Source: Deltaproteobacteria bacterium RBG_16_49_23
GTDB taxonomy: Bacteria > Desulfobacterota > BSN033 > UBA1163
Length of the DNA stretch: 60,265 bases
Assembly (NCBI GenBank): GCA_001798855.1
Contig: MGQQ01000126.1
Location: forward strand, 1-60,265
Direction of reading: 5' to 3'
Made by a program: the position numbers and the translations under genes. Of the stretch, positions 3,031 through 55,667 are shown in pieces. The number at the start of each line of letters is the position of its first letter. Within the stretch, counting starts at the first letter, position 1. The notes below the pieces were generated by a model that saw only the letters and a program-made list of their open reading frames with translations, was not told the DNA's origin and ran no database searches.

Positions 3031-3080
3031 CCCCCTCACCCTTTCCCTCTCCCCAGAGGGGAGAGGGTGGGGTGAGGGGG
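3031..3080. repeat. CCCTCACCC-type palindromic repeat (hairpin)
   Basis: Two arms, CCCCCTCACCC and its complement GGGTGAGGGGG, enclose an inner stem of CCCTCTCCCC and GGGGAGAGGG with loop AGA. The same element recurs at 7851-7941 and 35585-35624. It sits 3' of the DUF3108-type gene context with no T-run. It may act as an mRNA-stabilising or terminator-like structure. Confidence 0.8.
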
Positions 3081-3105
3081 CCGAATTCCGAATTCCGAAT
3101 TTGGA

Positions 3106-3960
3106 TTAACTCCTAACCTTATGGATGAGCTTTCCGGTAACATTCCCGAAGAGGATGACATCTCTGATCATTCCTTCTACGGGATAGAGGTCTTTGGATA
3201 GCCATCCCTCGATGAGACCCTCTTTCGAATGAGTAATCTCTGTATCCAGAGATAGTTTGACAAAGTAATCTTTTTCGTCTTTTACTTTTTCCGATTTTTT
3301 CCTCTTCTCCTCTTCCTCTTTCGTTGCCACCTTCACCTCGTAACTTGTAGGACCTTTTTTCGGAAAGGTGGGGACGGAATATTTCTTCCCCCTCTCCACT
3401 TCTCCGTAAACACCGTACCGGAAATTGTAAGAGGCGGTGAGAAAGTCGTCATAGTTTTTCCCGGAAGGAATCTCCTCTTCCTTTTTCACGGAGGTTCCAT
3501 CCTTTTTCCGCCTTATCTGAACCCACTTCATCTTCTGATAATCGAAAAGATGGGTTCTGCTTCTCAGTTTCTCCCCTATCTTTACATCTTCTTCGAATGA
3601 AAGCGACCGGAGACGTCTCCCGCCATCCACCTCTTCCATCACCGAACGGTACGTGTCCACCCGGTAACGGGCAACAAATCCAAGAACGCCCAGGGTCTCC
3701 GTCTCCAGGACGGCGAGGTAACGGCCTTTCTTCCCCGCTTCTCGAAAGCTCAATTTCCCCAGGGCCGCCCTTTTAAAAAGCCAGAATCCGATTTCATAAG
3801 AGAGCTCCTCTCCTTTAAAGAATTCAGCAATAGATTTTTTATCCCATCTCCCTGCAGAAAGAGAATTTGCTCCTGTTTCCCGAACATGGAAAGGAAAAAC
3901 AGGAAGGAATAAAAACCCCAAAATCCACCGGAAAAAATCTCTTCTCTTAATGGAAGCCAT
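3106..3960 (-). CDS. DUF3108-like exported protein
   Basis: The 284-residue protein begins with a basic RR-containing segment (KRRDFFRWILGFLFLP) followed by hydrophobic residues, a plausible export signal that even resembles a Tat motif. The mature part is beta-rich. It includes a Phe-Glu-Gly-x3-Leu-Ser-Tyr-Glu-Ile start (about residue 48) and repeated short strands with charged linkers, the pattern of DUF3108 periplasmic beta-barrel-like proteins. A Lys/Glu-rich insertion lies at about residues 215-235. No catalytic motif is visible. It is separated from the GTPase gene upstream by long palindromes and is probably its own unit. Role unknown; perhaps envelope-related. Confidence 0.6.
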   Translation of the reverse strand: MASIKRRDFFRWILGFLFLPVFPFHVRETGANSLSAGRWDKKSIAEFFKGEELSYEIGFWLFKRAALGKLSFREAGKKGRYLAVLETETLGVLGFVARYRVDTYRSVMEEVDGGRRLRSLSFEEDVKIGEKLRSRTHLFDYQKMKWVQIRRKKDGTSVKKEEEIPSGKNYDDFLTASYNFRYGVYGEVERGKKYSVPTFPKKGPTSYEVKVATKEEEEKRKKSEKVKDEKDYFVKLSLDTEITHSKEGLIEGWLSKDLYPVEGMIRDVILFGNVTGKLIHKVRS

Positions 3961-4010
3961 TTTTATCTATCCTTTATTGTCCATTGTGTATCTTAAATCT
4001 TTCAACTCCA

Positions 4011-4078
4011 TAACTCCCCCCCCCTCTTAGGCTAAGAGGGGGGGGGAGTTATCGCCCCCTCTTAACTTAAGAGGGGGT
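4011..4078. repeat. Two tandem perfect palindromes
   Basis: The arms 4011-4030 and 4032-4051 are 20-bp perfect complements separated by one base, with nine C and nine G in each. A second palindrome follows directly, with 11-bp arms at 4055-4065 and 4067-4077. They lie between the stop of the GTPase gene and the start of the DUF3108 gene, both on the minus strand, and probably form strong hairpins in the transcript. Confidence 0.9.
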
Positions 4079-4102
4079 TTGGGGGTGTTACATTGTCCAT
4101 CG

Positions 4103-5089
4103 TTAGATATGCAGCTCAATCACATCGCCTTCACTTACCCGGTAGTCGCGTTTCACCATCTGGCCGTCAAATTTCCCCGACCCCCAGATCCTGGCATACT
4201 TCAGTTTTGCGGCAAAATCCTTATGAACCGAAAGGGCCACATCATCGATCGTGCTTCCCTTCCTGAGAATGACAGGCTCTGTCAGGTCAGGCTCTTTCCC
4301 CGGGATTTTGGTGTAGACCCGGAGGATGTCCAAACGGTGGTAGACTTCTTTCTTCATCTCTTCAAAATTCATTTCCCCCTTTGCAGAGACAGGAAGAACC
4401 ATCAATTGACCCTTGAACCGGCTCTCAAGCGCCCGGAACCCTTCCATCGCATTTCTGAGATCCGCTTTGTTTCCAAGGAGGAACGCCTTTTTAAAGACCC
4501 ATCCTTCCTCGAGGGGATGGGCCTGTTCTCTATTGCCTATCCCTATCTTCATCCTGTTCAACTCTTCGAGAAGAACCTCCATCTGGAAGACCGGATCCTC
4601 CGTCAGGTCCAGTACGATGAGAACGGCATTGGCATTCCGGATGAGATTGGGAAATCCAGGCTCGATCCGGTCAATCTGGATGGGCGGTGTATCCACCAGT
4701 TGAATCTGGAAGTTCTCAAACTTCATCATCCCCGGGATAGGTTTCTGGGTGGTGAAGGGGTAGTCCGCAACCTCGGAAGGAGCATGGGTGAGGCGAGTGA
4801 AGAGACTCGACTTCCCGGAATTGGGCAAGCCCAGAAGCACGACCTGTGCCGCCCCCTCTCTTTTGATGTTATAGGCCTGCTCCGCCCGGCTAACCGCAGG
4901 CCTCTTTTGAAGCTCCTCTTTCAACTTGGCCATCCGGGACTTTAGTTGCCCCCGGAGTTTCTCCGTCCCTTTGTGCTTTGGGATGACGGCCATCATCACC
5001 TCAAGGGCGCTGATCTTTTCGGGAACGGATTTGGCCTGTTTAAATTTGGCCTCTGCTTCTAAATATTGGGGCGTGAGATTGGCTGGCAT
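4103..5089 (-). CDS. OBG/DRG-type GTPase with C-terminal TGS domain
   Basis: The 328-residue protein has an N-terminal helical region followed by a GTPase core: G1 GLPNSGKSS at about residue 86, a DxPFTTxxP switch segment, G3 DTPP, G4 NKAD and G5 SAK. The C-terminal 70 residues form a TGS domain (VILRKGSTIDDVALSVHKDF through SEGDVIELHI). This arrangement is that of DRG-like TGS GTPases known from archaea and eukaryotes and found sporadically in bacteria, which bind ribosomes or RNA. The predicted location is cytoplasmic. All nucleotide-binding motifs look intact. The precise role in bacteria is not established. Confidence 0.88.
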   Translation of the reverse strand: MPANLTPQYLEAEAKFKQAKSVPEKISALEVMMAVIPKHKGTEKLRGQLKSRMAKLKEELQKRPAVSRAEQAYNIKREGAAQVVLLGLPNSGKSSLFTRLTHAPSEVADYPFTTQKPIPGMMKFENFQIQLVDTPPIQIDRIEPGFPNLIRNANAVLIVLDLTEDPVFQMEVLLEELNRMKIGIGNREQAHPLEEGWVFKKAFLLGNKADLRNAMEGFRALESRFKGQLMVLPVSAKGEMNFEEMKKEVYHRLDILRVYTKIPGKEPDLTEPVILRKGSTIDDVALSVHKDFAAKLKYARIWGSGKFDGQMVKRDYRVSEGDVIELHI

Positions 5090-6416: not shown

Positions 6417-7793
6417 ATGGAACCAAAGAAAATAATGGTGGTGGATGATGAAGCCCATCTCCGGGATATCTTTCAGAAGGGTCTGTCCCAGATGGGTGGG
6501 TTTTCAGTTGAGGTGGCCTCGAATGGGAAAGAGGCGATCGAAAAGATCGAAAAGGAGATCTTCGACCTCGTCTTAACCGACCTGATGATGCCGGAGATGG
6601 ACGGCATGGAGTTTCTCAAGATCATCAAGGGAACAAGGCCTGAGATGCCGGTCATCATGATGACCGCCTACGGATCGATCGATACCGCCGTAGAAGCGTT
6701 AAAGATCGGAGCGAATGACTATATCACCAAGCCTGTTGATCTCAAAGATCTTCTTCTCCGAATCTCAAAGGTGCATCAGGAAAATCTCCTCTTGCAGGAG
6801 AATCGACTGCTGAGGATGGAGGTGAAGAAAAAATTTGAGTTTTCCAACATCATCGGAAAGAGCCGGAAGATGCAGAAGGTCTTCTCCCTGATCGAAAAAG
6901 TGGCTCCGAGCAACAGCTCGGTCATCATCTACGGAGGAAGCGGAACCGGAAAAGAACTCGTCGCTAAAGCCATTCATTACAACAGCCCGAGGGCGGATCA
7001 GCCCTTCATCCCTTTCAATTGCAGCGCCATCCCTGAGACGCTGGTGGAAAGCGAGCTTTTCGGTCACACCCGGGGCGCCTTCACGGGAGCAGTCCAGACC
7101 AAGAAAGGGTTGTTTGAGGAAGCCAATGGCGGAACCCTTTTTCTCGATGAAATCTCCACGGTCCTCCCCTCCGTTCAGGTGAAACTGTTAAGGGTTCTCC
7201 AGGAAAGGGAGGTCATGAAAATAGGGAGCACCGAGAGAACGAAGATCGATGTCCGGATGATTGCGGCGACCAATGAGGACCTTGAAACGAATATGAAGCA
7301 GGGGAAATTCCGGGAAGACCTCTTCTACCGGCTCCATGTCTTTCCCATCTTCCTCCCGGACCTGAAGGAGAGAAAGGAGGATATCTCCCTCCTAGCCTAC
7401 CATTTCCTCGATTTCTTCTCGAAGGAAGCTAAAAAGGAGATTAAAGGGATCTCGAAAGAGGCGGTGAATCTTCTTCTGGAATATCACTGGCCTGGAAATG
7501 TCAGGGAATTGGAGAATGCTATCGAAAGGGCGGTCATCCTGGCGGAAGGAGAATTTTTAACCCCTCAGGATCTTCCCGGAGACTTAACGGAAGGGTTTTC
7601 CTTCCTGATCAGAAGAGGCACAAAGGCCCGTAGATCCCTGGATGAAATCAAGGCCGAATACATCACCCAGATATTGAAGGAGACCGATGGAAATAAAAAG
7701 ACAGCCGCCGAAATCCTAAAGGTTAACCCCAGAACGCTCTACCGGTTCGAAAAGAAGGCCCCCTCCGGGGATCCCCAGAAATTGGAATCTTAA
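6417..7793 (+). CDS. Sigma-54-dependent NtrC-family response regulator
   Basis: The protein of about 458 residues has a receiver domain with phosphoacceptor Asp in LVLTDLMMPEMDG. An AAA+ domain follows, with Walker A GGSGTGKE, sigma-54 loop GAFTGA and Walker B GGTLFLDE. A C-terminal Fis-type helix-turn-helix contains KKTAAEILKVNPRTLYR. The family activates RNA polymerase with sigma-54 when phosphorylated. I chose the ATG at 6417 because CAGGAG lies 7 bases upstream and the receiver domain begins directly after it; a TTG at 6387 would add ten residues. No sigma-54 target promoter was identified nearby. Its neighbours, the HD-GYP regulator and TPR lipoprotein, suggest roles in motility or surface behaviour, which is inference. 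Confidence 0.93.
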   Translation: MEPKKIMVVDDEAHLRDIFQKGLSQMGGFSVEVASNGKEAIEKIEKEIFDLVLTDLMMPEMDGMEFLKIIKGTRPEMPVIMMTAYGSIDTAVEALKIGANDYITKPVDLKDLLLRISKVHQENLLLQENRLLRMEVKKKFEFSNIIGKSRKMQKVFSLIEKVAPSNSSVIIYGGSGTGKELVAKAIHYNSPRADQPFIPFNCSAIPETLVESELFGHTRGAFTGAVQTKKGLFEEANGGTLFLDEISTVLPSVQVKLLRVLQEREVMKIGSTERTKIDVRMIAATNEDLETNMKQGKFREDLFYRLHVFPIFLPDLKERKEDISLLAYHFLDFFSKEAKKEIKGISKEAVNLLLEYHWPGNVRELENAIERAVILAEGEFLTPQDLPGDLTEGFSFLIRRGTKARRSLDEIKAEYITQILKETDGNKKTAAEILKVNPRTLYRFEKKAPSGDPQKLES

Positions 7794-7850
7794 CCGTCCG
7801 GTCCCGCCGTGTCTTCATGTTAACGAAAGTTAAAAGTGCACTCCTTCTAT

Positions 7851-7941
7851 TATCCTCTCCCCAAGGGGAGAGGATAAAGGTGAGGGGGTGTTTTGAGGAG
7901 CTCCACCCTCACCCTAACCCTCTCCCGCCAGCGGGAGAGGG
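7851..7941. repeat. Paired CCCTCACCC-type palindromic repeats
   Basis: Two hairpins of the same repeat family lie in opposite orientation. The first has CCTCTCCCC/GGGGAGAGG arms and the second CCCTCTCCCGC/GCGGGAGAGGG, joined through the GGTGAGGGGG and CCACCCTCACC segments that can also pair with each other. The whole can fold into one long cruciform. It occupies the 310-base gap between the sigma-54 regulator and the TPR lipoprotein; no gene is visible there. Confidence 0.8.
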
Positions 7942-48726: not shown

Positions 48727-50703
48727 ATGAAAACAAAATTTAAAAGATCGATCATTATTCTTTTTGCCATTTCCCTTGCCCTCTTATTGGGCCCCGGATT
48801 GATGTGGGCGGCCACGCCCACACCGGAAAAAAAGGAAGTCTCCAAACCTGCTGCGGTGACCAAACCTCCGGAATCTGCGAAAAAGGGAGAGAAGTTCGTC
48901 ATCAAGGGAAGGGAATACTGTTTTGAGTGTATCGACAATTCTGATTGCCTTGGTTGCCATGGCAGTAAGATCAACGAGAGGAAATTTGCTCAGTCTGTGC
49001 ATGGAGCTAACTCCTGCAATAGCTGCCACTGGGATATTACAGATATTAAAACACATGAGAAAGCCAAAGGGGCAAGAATTCATGCTGAGCCTGTCACCTG
49101 TCATCGATGCCATAAGAAGGAAGGGGCGGAACATTATGCAAGCGCCCACTTCATCAACGATATTCAATGTAAAGACTGTCACAAAGAGATTCATGAAATA
49201 AGCCCCTGGAAAGGGGATAAGGCGAGGGTGATACAGAAATGCACCACCTGCCACTCTGATGACGGTTATTCAGAAAGCGTTCACGGGAAATCTGTCCTCG
49301 CGGGAAATCCGGATTCTGCTGCTTGTCATGACTGTCATGGGATGCACAAAATCCCCTTATTGAAAGGGGATGAACCCAAGGTGGTCGAGTCCCGGAAGGA
49401 GTTCCATACAGAGGTCTGTCAGAAGTGTCATGCGGATAAGGAGATGATGGAGCGAAATAAGGTCTTCGTTGTCGCTACTCAAACCTATTATGAAAGTTAC
49501 CATGGAAAGGTTGAACATTTGGGTTACCCCAAACTGGTAGCAGGCTGTGCGGATTGCCATGGTTTTCACAGTATCCTTCCTCCCAAAGATCCCAAATCTC
49601 TCATCTCAGATGCGCGTCTCGTAGAGACCTGTGGAAAGTGCCATCCCGGGGCGAACACCAACTTTGTCATGTGGGTCGCCCATGCTACGCATACTGACCC
49701 GAAGAGGGATCCCATTTTTTATTGGACCTTTGTCATTATGACCGCCTTATTGGTTTCCGTGTTCAGCATGTTCTGGATCCATACCATCCTCTGGTGGAGA
49801 AGGGACTTCTGGGAAAAACGGGAATTGAGGGCGAAAGGGATCTTCTTCCCGCAACATGTCAAACCAGAAGAGGCAGGTTTCATGTATCGCCGCTTCAGCT
49901 ATTTTGACATCGTGCTTCACTTCACGATGATGGTCACATTCATTGCCCTTGTCCTGACCGGACTGCCGTTGAAATTCTCTCATGCTCCCTGGGCAAAAGG
50001 TCTGATGCACTTTTTAGGAGGAGCCGGGTTAGCAGGATTGATCCACCGGATCGCTGCTGGAATCACCTTTGGTTATTTTGGAGCGGCCATCGGTTATATC
50101 ATCTACTTTCTCTTCTACAAAAAGCTTCCCGGTAATCCAAACCCTCTCCAGAAACTTTTTGGTCCGGACTCGCTCTGTCCAAGGTGGAAAGATGTTGAGG
50201 ATATCGTGGGGATGATCCGCTGGTTCTTTAACCAGGGGCCCAAACCCCAGTTTGACCGCTGGACCTACTGGGAGAAGTTTGATTTCCTGGCGGTGTTCTG
50301 GGGAATGTTTGCCATTGGCTTTTCCGGTTTGATGCTCTGGTTTCCGGAGGCCTTCTCCATCTTTCTGCCGGGCTGGGTGCTCAATATCGCCCAGATCGTC
50401 CATTCGGACGAAGCGCTTCTTGCTTCCGGCTTCATCTTCACGGTCCACTTCTTCAACACCCATTTCAGACCGTCGAAGTTCCCCTTTGATCCGGTGATCT
50501 TTACAGGAAGATTACCCAAATATGAACTGGTTGAAGAGCGGCTGGAACAGTATAAAAGGCTGGTGGCCCAGAAGAGGCTGGAGATCTATCGAGAAAAATA
50601 TCCCAGCGCCCTGACAGATCTCTTCTCAAACGTAATGGGATTTGCCATGCTGGCCCTCGGGCTTTTCTGCGTCTTTCTAATCGCCTGGGAATTTTTAGGA
50701 TAG
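48727..50703 (+). CDS. Nonahaem cytochrome c fused to a cytochrome b561-type membrane domain
   Basis: A 658-residue protein with signal peptide (residues 1-28). A periplasmic part has nine CxxCH haem c motifs (CLGCH, CNSCH, CHRCH, CKDCH, CTTCH, CHDCH, CQKCH, CADCH, CGKCH; about residues 75-315). The C-terminal half (about 335-655) is a membrane domain with five or so hydrophobic segments and histidines in HFTMMVTFIALVLTGLP and FIFTVHFFNTHF that could bind haem b. This resembles thiosulfate/formate-dehydrogenase-type cytochrome b subunits with the c-type part fused on. It should pass electrons between quinones and periplasmic cytochromes. It lies opposite the selenoprotein gene, with a word palindrome between. 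Confidence 0.9.
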   Translation: MKTKFKRSIIILFAISLALLLGPGLMWAATPTPEKKEVSKPAAVTKPPESAKKGEKFVIKGREYCFECIDNSDCLGCHGSKINERKFAQSVHGANSCNSCHWDITDIKTHEKAKGARIHAEPVTCHRCHKKEGAEHYASAHFINDIQCKDCHKEIHEISPWKGDKARVIQKCTTCHSDDGYSESVHGKSVLAGNPDSAACHDCHGMHKIPLLKGDEPKVVESRKEFHTEVCQKCHADKEMMERNKVFVVATQTYYESYHGKVEHLGYPKLVAGCADCHGFHSILPPKDPKSLISDARLVETCGKCHPGANTNFVMWVAHATHTDPKRDPIFYWTFVIMTALLVSVFSMFWIHTILWWRRDFWEKRELRAKGIFFPQHVKPEEAGFMYRRFSYFDIVLHFTMMVTFIALVLTGLPLKFSHAPWAKGLMHFLGGAGLAGLIHRIAAGITFGYFGAAIGYIIYFLFYKKLPGNPNPLQKLFGPDSLCPRWKDVEDIVGMIRWFFNQGPKPQFDRWTYWEKFDFLAVFWGMFAIGFSGLMLWFPEAFSIFLPGWVLNIAQIVHSDEALLASGFIFTVHFFNTHFRPSKFPFDPVIFTGRLPKYELVEERLEQYKRLVAQKRLEIYREKYPSALTDLFSNVMGFAMLALGLFCVFLIAWEFLG

Positions 50704-50784: not shown

Positions 50785-52368
50785 TTATTTCGTGATTTTG
50801 CAGCCTATCTTCTCAAGGTAGGCCACGTAATTAAAGGTGGGACTCTGATCTTTGGTGTGGCAGTTTCGACAGACGCCGAGGGTCACCTTTCGATCCATCT
50901 TTCCCTTGCCGGGATGGTCTTTTCCTTTTCCATGGCAGGACTCACACTGGACCCCTTTGAGATAGAAAGGGATCTCGTCCACTGTAGCATATTCTGCCAT
51001 CTTTCCATAACCGGTAGAGTGGCACATCAGGCATTCCTCCTGGGCATATTTGGGCGAAGCCACGATGGTCTGTGAGGCCCTTGCATGTTTGGTCTTTAGC
51101 CAGTTGCGGTAATTCACCTCATGACATTTTTTGCAGGTGATCGCTCCGACAAAAGGACTCTCTTTGGGAATCCGGGCAATCATCTCTTTTTCGGACAGTC
51201 CTTTTTCAGGAAGGCCGATGACTTTCAGTTTGTAGAGTTTCGCTGATTCGGCGCGATAATGCTCCACCCCCTTCATGATCTTCGGATCATCCTCCACGGC
51301 AAGCTGGACAGGGATGGCGGTATATTTGTAAAAATTTTTATCTTCGAGGACGAGGAGGGCCTTCTCCACTTCCTTCTGTTTCAATTCCAAAAACTTCAGT
51401 TCCTTGATCTTCATCTCTTCCTTTTTCCCGGATCTTGCCATCTCTGCCTTAATCTGCAATGATCGGCCGGTCAGCCTTTCCATTTTCTTCTCTATCTCAT
51501 CCCGCTCACTGGAAACAGAGAACTTAATGGGTTTTTTTGTATCGATGAGAGAGAAGTCGACTCTCCCCAGATATCCGCCCCTTGGTTCCAGCCGGAAGAT
51601 GGGAATTTCATTCACCCTCTCTATGACCGCCTTTTGGGCCTCTCCCCCTCCTCCCAGGATGATGTCGATCTGTGGATGTTCACGAGCCAATCTCTTGTCT
51701 TTTGACTCGCCCAACTGAGAAAGGAGGATGATCAGGTCACAAGTTTCTCTCAAGCCCCTTATGACAGCCTTTGATGTTGTGATGGGGTCGAGGAGGGTCA
51801 GACCGGGGTCTATCTCCTGAAGGGCTGGGTTGAATTGGTCATCCAGGAGGCCGAAAACCCCGATCTTTAACCCGGCAATCTCCTTGATCACATAAGGGCT
51901 GAAGATACCTTTCTGAGTCTTTTTTTCAATCAGGTTAGCTGAAATGAAAGGGAATTTGGCTTTTTGTGTTGCTTCGGAGAGAAACCTCAAACCCATCATC
52001 AAATCCTTCTCCCCCACATTGACGACATCATACCCCATCTCGTTATAGGATTGGATGAGAAGATCGACTCGGAGGAGGGCATCCTTGCGTTTGGTCTCTG
52101 TATTTGAGGGCTTTCGAAAAAGGAGGTTTCCAGTATCGAGAAGGACTATTTTTTGACCCTCTTTTTTCATCCGGGAGAGAAGGGTCGATTTCTTGGCAAC
52201 CCCGCCAAGAGGACTTCTGAATCAGCCGCAGGGCTCAACCTCCCCCATCACATCATTGGTATAGACAACACAGAAATGGGTTTTGGGCGCTCCATGACTG
52301 ATGGGTGTCCAGTGGAGAATCAAAAGGAAGATGAGGATGGAAAGGATGGGGTGAAGGGAATTTTTCAT
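50785..52368 (-). CDS. UshA-like metallophosphatase with tetrahaem cytochrome c554-like domain; likely selenoprotein (in-frame TGA at 52224-52222)
   Basis: Starting from the ATG at 52368, which overlaps the upstream stop as ATGA, the frame gives a signal peptide (MKNSLHPILSILIFLLIL to SHGAP), the 5'-nucleotidase motif VYTNDVMGE, then EPCG-TGA-FRSPLGGVAKK, and continues without another stop to 50785 (527 residues). The family normally has EPCGC-x4-LGG at this point, so the TGA replaces the Cys and reads best as selenocysteine at residue 49. The metallophosphatase domain (about 30-280) includes LLDTGNLLF and IILGGGG. A helical linker and four CxxCH haem motifs (CKKCH, CLMCH, CESCH, CRNCH) follow. 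It is probably periplasmic. A reading from ATG 52170 would lose the signal peptide and the active-site N-terminus. Substrate unknown. Confidence 0.85.
52191..52224 (-). promoter_or_regulatory. Candidate bacterial SECIS element with its UGA codon
   Basis: The TGA at 52224-52222 is followed 11 bases later by stem TCTTGGC (52210-52204), loop GGGGTT (52203-52198) and complementary GCCAAGA (52197-52191). The loop begins with G and lies 19-24 bases after the TGA, within the usual bacterial SECIS range. Confidence 0.7.
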
Positions 52369-53012
52369 CGAAACCTTTTCTCCCCTGCCCGAATCTCAAT
52401 CTCCAGCCAGTTCTCCTTCGGCGCAAAAGGGCAGGTATATTTTTCATTGAACTCACAGAAAGGGTTATGGGCCCGGTTGAAATCGATCAGCACCTTTCCT
52501 CCGGGGATGGGTTCGATATGAAGATAACGTCCCTCCGGATAGGTCTCTGCCCCTGAGGTCTTGTCTTTAAAGGGCAGGAAAAAGTCACCCCCTCCCAAGG
52601 GCCGGTAAATTTGGAGGGTATATTCTTTCCCTTCCAATTTAAATTTGAAACGGCCGTATTTGACATATTTCTTTTCTCTCTCTTTATTCGTTGGAAGGTT
52701 AACGTAGATGGGTTTTGGATCGGTGGGATATTTTTCAATCGATCCGGTCATTGCATATTTCAGGTCGATCGGATAATAGATGAGGCCTTTGAATTTTTTT
52801 CGGGCACTCTCTTTGATGGGGGAGTGAGGGTCTTCTTTAAAAAAAAGGGCTCTCTTTTCTCGAAAAATCCTTATCTTCTCTTCTCTCCTTTCCGTGGGAT
52901 CTTCTCCTTCCTTCGACAGAGAAAACCCGGTTTTCCCGGCCAAAAGGAAGAGAGAGAGACAGGAGATGAAAACCAGGGCCCATGTCCGCCCTCCATTCAT
53001 AAACCCGCCCAT
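52365..53012 (-). CDS. DUF1684 family exported protein
   Basis: A protein of about 211-215 residues with an N-terminal hydrophobic signal (TWALVFISCLSLFLLAG). The C-terminal motif DFNRAHNPFCEFNEKYTCPF followed by APKENWLEIEIRAGEK is the DUF1684 signature. Its conserved Asn, Cys and Glu residues may form a metal or catalytic site. The family is of unknown function. The ATG at 53012 directly follows the stop of a 51-residue membrane protein, and its own stop overlaps the start of the selenoprotein gene as ATGA, so the three appear translationally coupled. Confidence 0.88.
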   Translation of the reverse strand: MGGFMNGGRTWALVFISCLSLFLLAGKTGFSLSKEGEDPTERREEKIRIFREKRALFFKEDPHSPIKESARKKFKGLIYYPIDLKYAMTGSIEKYPTDPKPIYVNLPTNKEREKKYVKYGRFKFKLEGKEYTLQIYRPLGGGDFFLPFKDKTSGAETYPEGRYLHIEPIPGGKVLIDFNRAHNPFCEFNEKYTCPFAPKENWLEIEIRAGEKRFR

Positions 53013-53368: not shown

Positions 53369-53477
53369 TTACCCATTCTATAGAACCCCGCCATTAAAAT
53401 CAATAACACATTTTTACTGTTGAAAAAATTCTAAAAGAATGGTAAAGAATAGTCCATTCCAGGAGGTGGGGTCTCCA

Positions 53478-55667
53478 ATGAAAAAACTTAAGATACCTTT
53501 TTCTTTCGACAGGTTTAAAAATTATTTTAGCACTGAAAACTTACAAGAGGCTTATGATTTAATCAAAACCTTCTGGACCGACGTTTTTATAAGTTTTAAA
53601 AGAGGGACTCAAGAACACGGCCGGGCCATTAAGACCTCGCTTGTCGTTTGTGTCGTCTTATTCGTTATTCTTTCCCTTGCCCTCTTGAGATTTACCGAAA
53701 GCTCCACGTTCTGCGGCCTGTGCCATCAGATGGATGTTTATATAGAGTCGTGGCAGGCCTCCAGCCACCGCCATGCGGCCTGCACACAATGCCATTACGA
53801 GCCTGGTCTTATAAACCATCTGAAGGGAAAATGGGTGGACGGTCAGGTATCGCTCGCCTACTTCCTCTCGGGCAAGACGCCCAGCAAACCTCATGCAGAG
53901 ATCAGCGATGCGAGTTGCCTTCAGAAGGGATGCCATAAGATAGAGGATCTTCAGAAGGATATGGTCTACAAGAATGTGGCTTTCTCCCACGGAAAACACC
54001 TCGAGGAGCTGAGAAGGGGGATGAAGCTTCGGTGCACCAGCTGCCATGCCCAACTCGTACAGGGAGCCCATCTCACCGTCCATGAAATCAACTGTTTCAT
54101 CTGCCATTACTATCGGGCGGGCCCGAAAGGAGAGGAAGATTGTATCTCATGCGCCGTGGGAAGCTGTGTCTCCTGCCATGTGGAGCCCAAGGGGGATATC
54201 AAAATCAAAGGCTGGAATTTCAACCATCAAAAGTATATTGCGAGAGGAGTGGAATGCGAGAGGTGCCATGTGAATGTGGTTCAGGGGGATGGCCATGTCC
54301 CGGAAGGGAAATGCGTTCAGTGCCACAGTGAACCCGAGATCCTTACGACCAAATATACTCCTCAATTCATGCATAAGAAGCATGTCACCGACCACAAGAT
54401 CGAATGTGCGGATTGCCACTCTCACATTCGACATGAGATCGGGCCAATTCTTACGATGGTCCATTCTCCCACCGTCTGTGATAAGTGCCACAGCAAGGAG
54501 ATGCACCTGGGGCCGAGGGAATTTTACAAGGGCAGTGGCGGGATCGGGGTTCCGGACTCTCCGAGCCTCATGTATGCCACCAATGTCGATTGTGTAGCCT
54601 GCCACCGGAAGGGAGAGGAAAGCCGGGCTGCCCTTCACACCACGAAATATGTGGAGAGGGCCATGGGGGAATCGTGTGTCAGTTGCCACGGGGAGGGCTT
54701 TGATGAGACCCTAAAACAGTGGCAGCTCCTCCTCTCCAAGGCGAAAAACGAAACCGGTCAGCGCCTCTCCAATGTCCAGGGAATTCTCCTGGAAGCGGAA
54801 AAGGACAGGGCGAGATCCCCTGAGTTTAAGAAGGCCGAGAACTTCCTGAACGAGGCGCGCCACAATTACAACTTCGTCCACCTGGGGAAGGGCGCCCATA
54901 ATATTGAGTATGCGATTAAACTCCTCAATGCGGCGAACTATAAGACGGAGCAGGCCCTGGTCGCCCTCGACAGGAATCATCAATCCAGAGAATTTAAGAC
55001 AGAGATGACCTGTACGACTCTCTGCCATATCGGGATCGAAAAACGGGCCGTTCCTTTCAACGACATCAAATTCTCCCATGAAACCCATGTGCTCAGAAAA
55101 AAGCTCAAATGCATGGATTGCCACTCACCCCGCGACAATCACGGGAAGACTTTTTATAAGAATTGCAAAGATTGCCATCATGGCAAAGAGAGCAAGAGGG
55201 TCAAATGCGAAGACTGCCATATCTCGGTCAAAAGGCTGATTCAGGGGAAAGGGGGCATCGGAGTTAAAGACAGGCCAAGCAATAAGTTGGATGTGGTCGA
55301 ATGTATCGATTGTCACCGTGGCGTGCCTGCCAAGAAGAAGGATGGCCTCGATGCGATCAAGAAACGTTGTATCGAATGCCATGACCAGAGTTACGGAGAG
55401 ATGCTCATCCAGTGGAAGAAAAGTTCCGAGGCGCTTTTAACGAAATTGGCTCCGAAGATCGAGAAGGTGAGAGAGGAGATCAGAAGAATGGAAATCCGTG
55501 GCGGCCATACCTTTGTCTATCGAAAACCCTTCGGAGAAGCGGAGTTCAATTATAATCTGGCGTTGAAAGGAAATGGGGTTCATAACCTTGAATATACGGA
55601 AGATCTTATAGAGTTTGCCAATTATCGCCTCGATGAGGCCATGAAACAGTTGGCCAGGAAGAAATGA
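53478..55667 (+). CDS. NapC-type membrane-anchored multihaem cytochrome c, about 18 haem sites
   Basis: About 729 residues. One transmembrane anchor near the N-terminus (about residues 47-65) is followed by CGLCHQMD, the NapC/NirT signature. The protein has sixteen CxxCH motifs, one CLQKGCH (CX4CH) and one CTTLCH (CX3CH), and a CISCA in which the haem His is lost. Two stretches, about residues 435-500 and 660-725, contain the same helical module with N-Y-N and G-x-H-N-x-E-Y, resembling the C-terminal helices of NrfA/octahaem reductases. It should carry electrons from membrane quinol to periplasmic acceptors. The ATG at 53478 has AGGAGG upstream; ATG 53439 is an alternative. Confidence 0.88.
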   Translation: MKKLKIPFSFDRFKNYFSTENLQEAYDLIKTFWTDVFISFKRGTQEHGRAIKTSLVVCVVLFVILSLALLRFTESSTFCGLCHQMDVYIESWQASSHRHAACTQCHYEPGLINHLKGKWVDGQVSLAYFLSGKTPSKPHAEISDASCLQKGCHKIEDLQKDMVYKNVAFSHGKHLEELRRGMKLRCTSCHAQLVQGAHLTVHEINCFICHYYRAGPKGEEDCISCAVGSCVSCHVEPKGDIKIKGWNFNHQKYIARGVECERCHVNVVQGDGHVPEGKCVQCHSEPEILTTKYTPQFMHKKHVTDHKIECADCHSHIRHEIGPILTMVHSPTVCDKCHSKEMHLGPREFYKGSGGIGVPDSPSLMYATNVDCVACHRKGEESRAALHTTKYVERAMGESCVSCHGEGFDETLKQWQLLLSKAKNETGQRLSNVQGILLEAEKDRARSPEFKKAENFLNEARHNYNFVHLGKGAHNIEYAIKLLNAANYKTEQALVALDRNHQSREFKTEMTCTTLCHIGIEKRAVPFNDIKFSHETHVLRKKLKCMDCHSPRDNHGKTFYKNCKDCHHGKESKRVKCEDCHISVKRLIQGKGGIGVKDRPSNKLDVVECIDCHRGVPAKKKDGLDAIKKRCIECHDQSYGEMLIQWKKSSEALLTKLAPKIEKVREEIRRMEIRGGHTFVYRKPFGEAEFNYNLALKGNGVHNLEYTEDLIEFANYRLDEAMKQLARKK

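Follow-up and report, generated by a model that had tools for sequence, protein, structure and literature searches.

A likely selenocysteine-decoded member of the UshA-like (seleno)protein family with a tetrahaem cytochrome domain in Deltaproteobacteria bacterium RBG_16_49_23

UshA-like proteins of COG0737 with a CxU motif were reported as selenoproteins in the 2008 GOS study (PMC2398784), listed again in 2022 (PMC9312934) and given as family NF041198 in a 2026 paper (PMC13188914). The passages on the family in PMC2398784, PMC9312934 and PMC13188914 assign no function to it. Here, we describe a member of this family from Deltaproteobacteria bacterium RBG_16_49_23 (Desulfobacterota; assembly GCA_001798855.1, contig MGQQ01000126.1). 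The whole stretch of 60,265 nucleotides that was analyzed is called the window throughout the text. The gene contains an in-frame TGA which, judged from comparative sequence data, is likely decoded as selenocysteine (Sec). With a probability of roughly 0.68, the gene encodes a Sec-decoded NF041198 member whose Cys-Gly-Sec motif would act as a redox couple exchanging electrons with the tetrahaem domain of the same protein.

The read-through product of 527 residues matched NF041198, named “UshA-like (seleno)protein”, over nearly its full length (residues 11-514 on model positions 3-518 of 519) with 507.7 bits, which is over the curated cut-off of 275. The family's PCG motif, in which the next residue is Sec (UGA) or Cys, is present with UGA, as is a tetrahaem c-type C-terminal part with four CxxCH motifs and a PF13435 (Cytochrome_C554) match at residues 411-480. 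The whole-length match, the PCGU motif, the interchange of Sec and Cys and the cytochrome part inside the model are shared with the family, and nothing sets the window copy apart from it; of the seven metal-ligand positions of the phosphatase domain the window copy keeps one, other members 0 to 4. The family is already catalogued, its first listing as a selenoprotein dating from 2008 or earlier; the gene is a new member of it. The selenoprotein-cytochrome fusion of the original prediction is not new, as NF041198 already covers the whole length, cytochrome part included. The second curated family, NF049981 (CxxU, model of 262 positions), resembles the window protein in its UshA-type domain, where Sec occupies the same loop, but the window protein scored under its cut-off (59.4 versus 140 bits). 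Escherichia coli UshA, the Thermus 5'-nucleotidase 2z1a and SoxB share the metallophosphatase fold, whereas the window protein has six of the seven metal-ligand positions replaced and carries a tetrahaem domain after the fold, at the place where UshA-type enzymes have a nucleotidase substrate domain. With cytochrome c554 (1bvb, PF13435) the C-terminal tetrahaem region is common (residues ~403-489 of the window protein), here fused to a UshA-like Sec domain.

On the minus strand, a single in-frame TGA at 52224-52222 interrupts an otherwise open frame from 52368 to 50785. Its product begins MKNSLHPILSILIFLLILHW and includes VYTNDVMGEVEPCG-U-FRSPLGGVAKK. The N-terminus of this long form resembles a signal peptide, which suggests export to the periplasm, and the start codon, ATG at 52368, forms an ATGA overlap with the TGA that ends the upstream gene. 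An upstream extension that crosses exactly one TGA and then yields a signal-peptide-like start, the YTND motif and the ATGA overlap had been described before, and was confirmed by the frame. The list of open reading frames (ORFs) starts the gene at ATG 52170, resulting in 461 residues and the loss of the first 66, Sec included. Among database homologues (best 120 of 592), 119 of 120 had 417-471 residues versus 527 for the read-through form. The predicted truncation by gene callers was seen for the window gene and agreed with the homologues, whose starts were judged by length only.

A TGA acting as an ordinary stop, with a real protein of 461 residues from ATG 52170 that is cytosolic or a remnant, would fit the standard ORF call and the absence of selD from the assembly (see below). 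We consider this very improbable. Compared with eleven relatives from the class, the stretch preceding the TGA has 112 changed codons, 59 of them synonymous, a share similar to that in the rest of the gene (395 of 764 in 118 codons further downstream); only a coding sequence under selection should show this pattern. From the TGA to Met67, 63 of 105 were synonymous. The internal ATG (residue 67) was present in 6 of the 11 relatives and absent in 5, which speaks against a start at this codon, a possibility raised with the original prediction. Moreover, a c-type haem domain needs export, and the signal-peptide-like start exists only on the long form. The occurrence of Cys at the same column in most TGA-free relatives and the TGA-linked hairpin, both described below, equally speak against a stop.

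A search of 23 genomes of the class identified 13 with an NF041198 match over the cut-off, the window's own included. One in-frame TGA was found in 12 of the 13 best matches; the partial gene L037, which lacks the motif, is the one in which the TGA lies elsewhere. Of 99 matches listed for a sample of 395 phylum genomes, 89 carried a TGA. For the fetched non-duplicate TGA-bearing loci, the TGA was located at the C-x-(x)-U motif in 50 of 51, the exception being L037. Nine fetched TGA-free homologues covered the column, with Cys in eight (L080-L084, L086-L088) and Arg in one (L034); a tenth TGA-free match (from G043) does not cover it. These Sec/Cys counts refer to fetched loci only, leaving out TGA-free matches below the best two (e.g., G013:C216, G005:C169, G009:C68). 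Sec and Cys, as read from these sequences, interchange at this column with two Arg exceptions, and the presence of Cys in relatives, originally predicted, was upheld by the alignment. One genome (G223) has both a Cys (PCGC, L084) and a Sec (PCGU, L085) tetrahaem copy. The in-frame TGA in the partial frame of L037 (G020) is residue 397, immediately ahead of the last haem motif (ITUGICRNCH), at a position that is Leu in relatives (VTLGVCRNCH in the window protein); a sequencing error, gene decay or another cause may account for it.

Bacterial Sec decoding was further assessed via the selenocysteine insertion sequence (SECIS). The predicted stem-loop was located exactly, with the stem TCTTGGC (52210-52204), the loop GGGGTT (52203-52198) and GCCAAGA (52197-52191) lying 12-31 nucleotides after the TGA. 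Hairpins were scored for a loop of 4-7 nucleotides starting with G and a stem of at least 4, and compared with synonymous recodings; the rule was set after viewing free-fold structures, and the controls use the same rule. The score of the window gene was matched by 11 of 2000 recodings. For PCGU loci (n=33) the hairpin sum was 468.5 versus 172.5 +/- 31.7, for CxxU loci (n=15) 168.5 versus 88.6 +/- 20.3, both equalled by 0 of 2000 recodings; the loci are related and not independent samples, and L065 and L066 are outside this test, their TGA motif not having been caught by the first pattern. The loop begins 19 or 20 nucleotides after the TGA in 30 hairpin-bearing PCGU loci and mostly 22 in CxxU loci, and the stem letters vary while pairing is kept (CTTGGC/GCCAAG, CTGGGC/GCCCAG, TTCGGG/CCCGAA). 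The score was not raised in the nine TGA-free homologues, Arg copy included (24 vs 40.9 +/- 14.9), nor at six downstream offsets (z -1.27 to 0.53). By this comparison the hairpin goes with the TGA. Plain folding energy of the 42 nucleotides after the TGA was dropped as evidence for a SECIS: 82 of 300 recodings were as stable in the window, and the mean z of -0.66 across n=50 (two duplicates included) was only weakly distinctive. The folding check proposed earlier turned out divided, positive for the loop-anchored score, unremarkable for free folding and without a match to an Rfam SECIS family.

The genome encodes tRNA-Sec (82.9 bits, cut-off 47), selA (623.1 bits) and selB (353.9 bits). A second UshA-like selenoprotein gene of the same genome (L079, contig C146 ~3077-4408, plus strand) has a PCPTU (CxxU) motif and no haem motifs, and precedes genes for a B12-binding radical SAM protein, selA (6506-7939) and tRNA-Sec. 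It stays under both curated cut-offs (NF041198 247 of 275, NF049981 66.6 of 140), as do 8 of 8 tested paralogues from the class; the CxxU paralogues of the class are possibly an uncurated third branch. A further copy, L034/L091 in genome G001 (4-1548), has PSGR in place of PCGU, no hairpin and four haem motifs; this genome has SelD and a TGA-bearing paralogue.

The N-terminal domain has a UshA-like fold by model prediction. At seven positions, taken by us from the UshA literature as the binuclear metal ligands, the window protein reads D, M, N, E, Q, G and E; only D39 is kept, and six are replaced. The 5'-nucleotidase ligand motifs DxH, GD, GNH, H and GHxH were not found, and K121 occupies the catalytic-His position. 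The conserved reactive residues are Cys47 and Sec/Cys49. Because six of seven phosphatase metal-ligand positions are replaced, a redox role is proposed for Cys-Gly-Sec, and the “redox-linked hydrolase” of the original prediction was not supported. Cys47 and Sec49 would cycle between a selenenylsulphide and a reduced form, and would exchange electrons in either direction with the haems and, beyond them, with the neighbouring multihaem cytochromes. As for the substrate, one may guess at a small compound of the periplasm, such as an oxyanion of sulphur, selenium or another element, or a disulphide. More tentatively, and with the odds somewhat against it, a phosphatase fold may have been converted to an electron-transfer enzyme, with the two-metal hydrolytic site dismantled and its place taken by a Cys-Gly-Sec redox couple in the neighbouring loop, wired within one polypeptide to the tetrahaem cytochrome. 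Alternatively, Sec could be present in a domain that has remained a metal-dependent hydrolase of SoxB or nucleotidase type, with Sec as substitute for a lost ligand or as nucleophile and the haems serving only for regulation or docking. Ligand residues kept by some relatives (see below) bear on this alternative, which is unlikely for the window protein with one ligand position kept, Lys at the catalytic-His position and Cys47 and Sec/Cys49 as conserved reactive residues.

The features of the locus are summarized in Table 1. Of 13 loci of the class, 12 have a convergent multihaem-cytochrome b protein encoded next to the gene and 9 the DUF1684 protein, the window being included in both counts. 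The sole exception for the convergent cytochrome is L034, whose contig starts at the gene; downstream of L034 are genes for c7-type cytochromes, iron-sulphur proteins and NrfD, and a frame whose molybdopterin Fe4S4 match stays below threshold (21.4 bits, cut-off 22.7). The divergent NrfH-like protein also contains two CxxxCH/CxxxxCH motifs and is weakly like NrfH and HmcA.

Table 1. Positions of the UshA-like (seleno)protein gene, its elements and its neighbours in the window.
Feature	Position	Strand	Basis
Convergent multihaem cytochrome, 658 residues, 9 CxxCH, b561-type membrane domain	48727..50703	+	Conserved neighbour
Read-through gene, 527-residue UshA-like (seleno)protein with C-terminal tetrahaem c554-type domain	50785..52368	-	NF041198 507.7 bits; PF13435
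Codons dropped by the standard call from ATG 52170 (signal-peptide-like start, YTND motif, PCGU)	52171..52368	-	ORF list gives 461-residue form
SECIS-like hairpin TCTTGGC-GGGGTT-GCCAAGA	52191..52210	-	Synonymous recoding and controls
In-frame TGA, likely selenocysteine codon, residue 49 in PCGU	52222..52224	-	Frame and TGA/Cys column
DUF1684 protein, ATGA overlap with gene start	52365..53012	-	PF07920 146.3 bits
Divergent NrfH-like multihaem cytochrome, 742 residues, 16 CxxCH	53439..55667	+	Near gene in 4 of 5 named relatives with longer flanks

Several observations weigh against a Sec-based redox protein. No selD match over the cut-off was obtained in the window's own assembly, which is 93% complete; of the selA, selB, selC and selD set named for checking in the original prediction, selA, selB and tRNA-Sec were found and selD was not. 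It was looked for beside the paralogue region of contig C146, where none was present and an IS110-type transposase lies upstream; the contig starts ~3 kb upstream of the paralogue with this transposase in between. In the relative G011, selD is located ~2.7 kb upstream of the UshA-like paralogue, and selD exceeds the cut-off in 18 of the 23 class genomes; among the matches listed, it also carries an in-frame TGA. The gene may therefore lie in an assembly gap. No hairpin by the rule was detected in 3 of 33 PCGU and 2 of 15 CxxU loci, that of L053/L054 is weak and misplaced, and Rfam, at its gathering threshold as well as at permissive ones, gave no SECIS match. Four of the seven ligand residues are kept in three of 40 relatives (0 to 4 across members other than the window copy), so that a metal role is conceivable elsewhere in the family. 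Conservation of the neighbours across the phylum was not borne out, since none of 20 loci outside the class (L055-L074, flanks of at most ~1.5 kb) shares them. Finally, L034 has lost the Cys too and reads an Arg codon (CGA) in the motif, and in the database protein P0016, with 70% identity across 98% of the query, the motif is PCER and the third haem motif is broken; the gene can therefore persist without Sec. As Arg is one change away from TGA, these two homologues might indicate a decaying gene, decoding of the TGA by a near-cognate tRNA, or a sequencing error. This explanation is least probable of all, given that 50 fetched loci, drawn from separate assemblies, have the TGA at the motif, that the hairpin is seen neither in the Arg copy (L034) nor in the Cys copies, and that the frame is otherwise intact with four haem motifs.

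For the Sec-decoded redox protein favored here, the largely lost metal site, the kept Cys-Gly-Sec/Cys, the TGA-linked hairpin and the multihaem cytochromes beside class members make the label “UshA-like” misleading and the redox hypothesis testable. Routine ORF calling removes the first 66 residues, among them Sec and the export-signal-like start. If the more tentative conversion of a phosphatase fold is true, it would mean a selenoenzyme class in which Sec is oxidized and reduced directly via periplasmic c-type haems, with a second, haem-free CxxU branch encoded beside selA and the tRNA-Sec gene.
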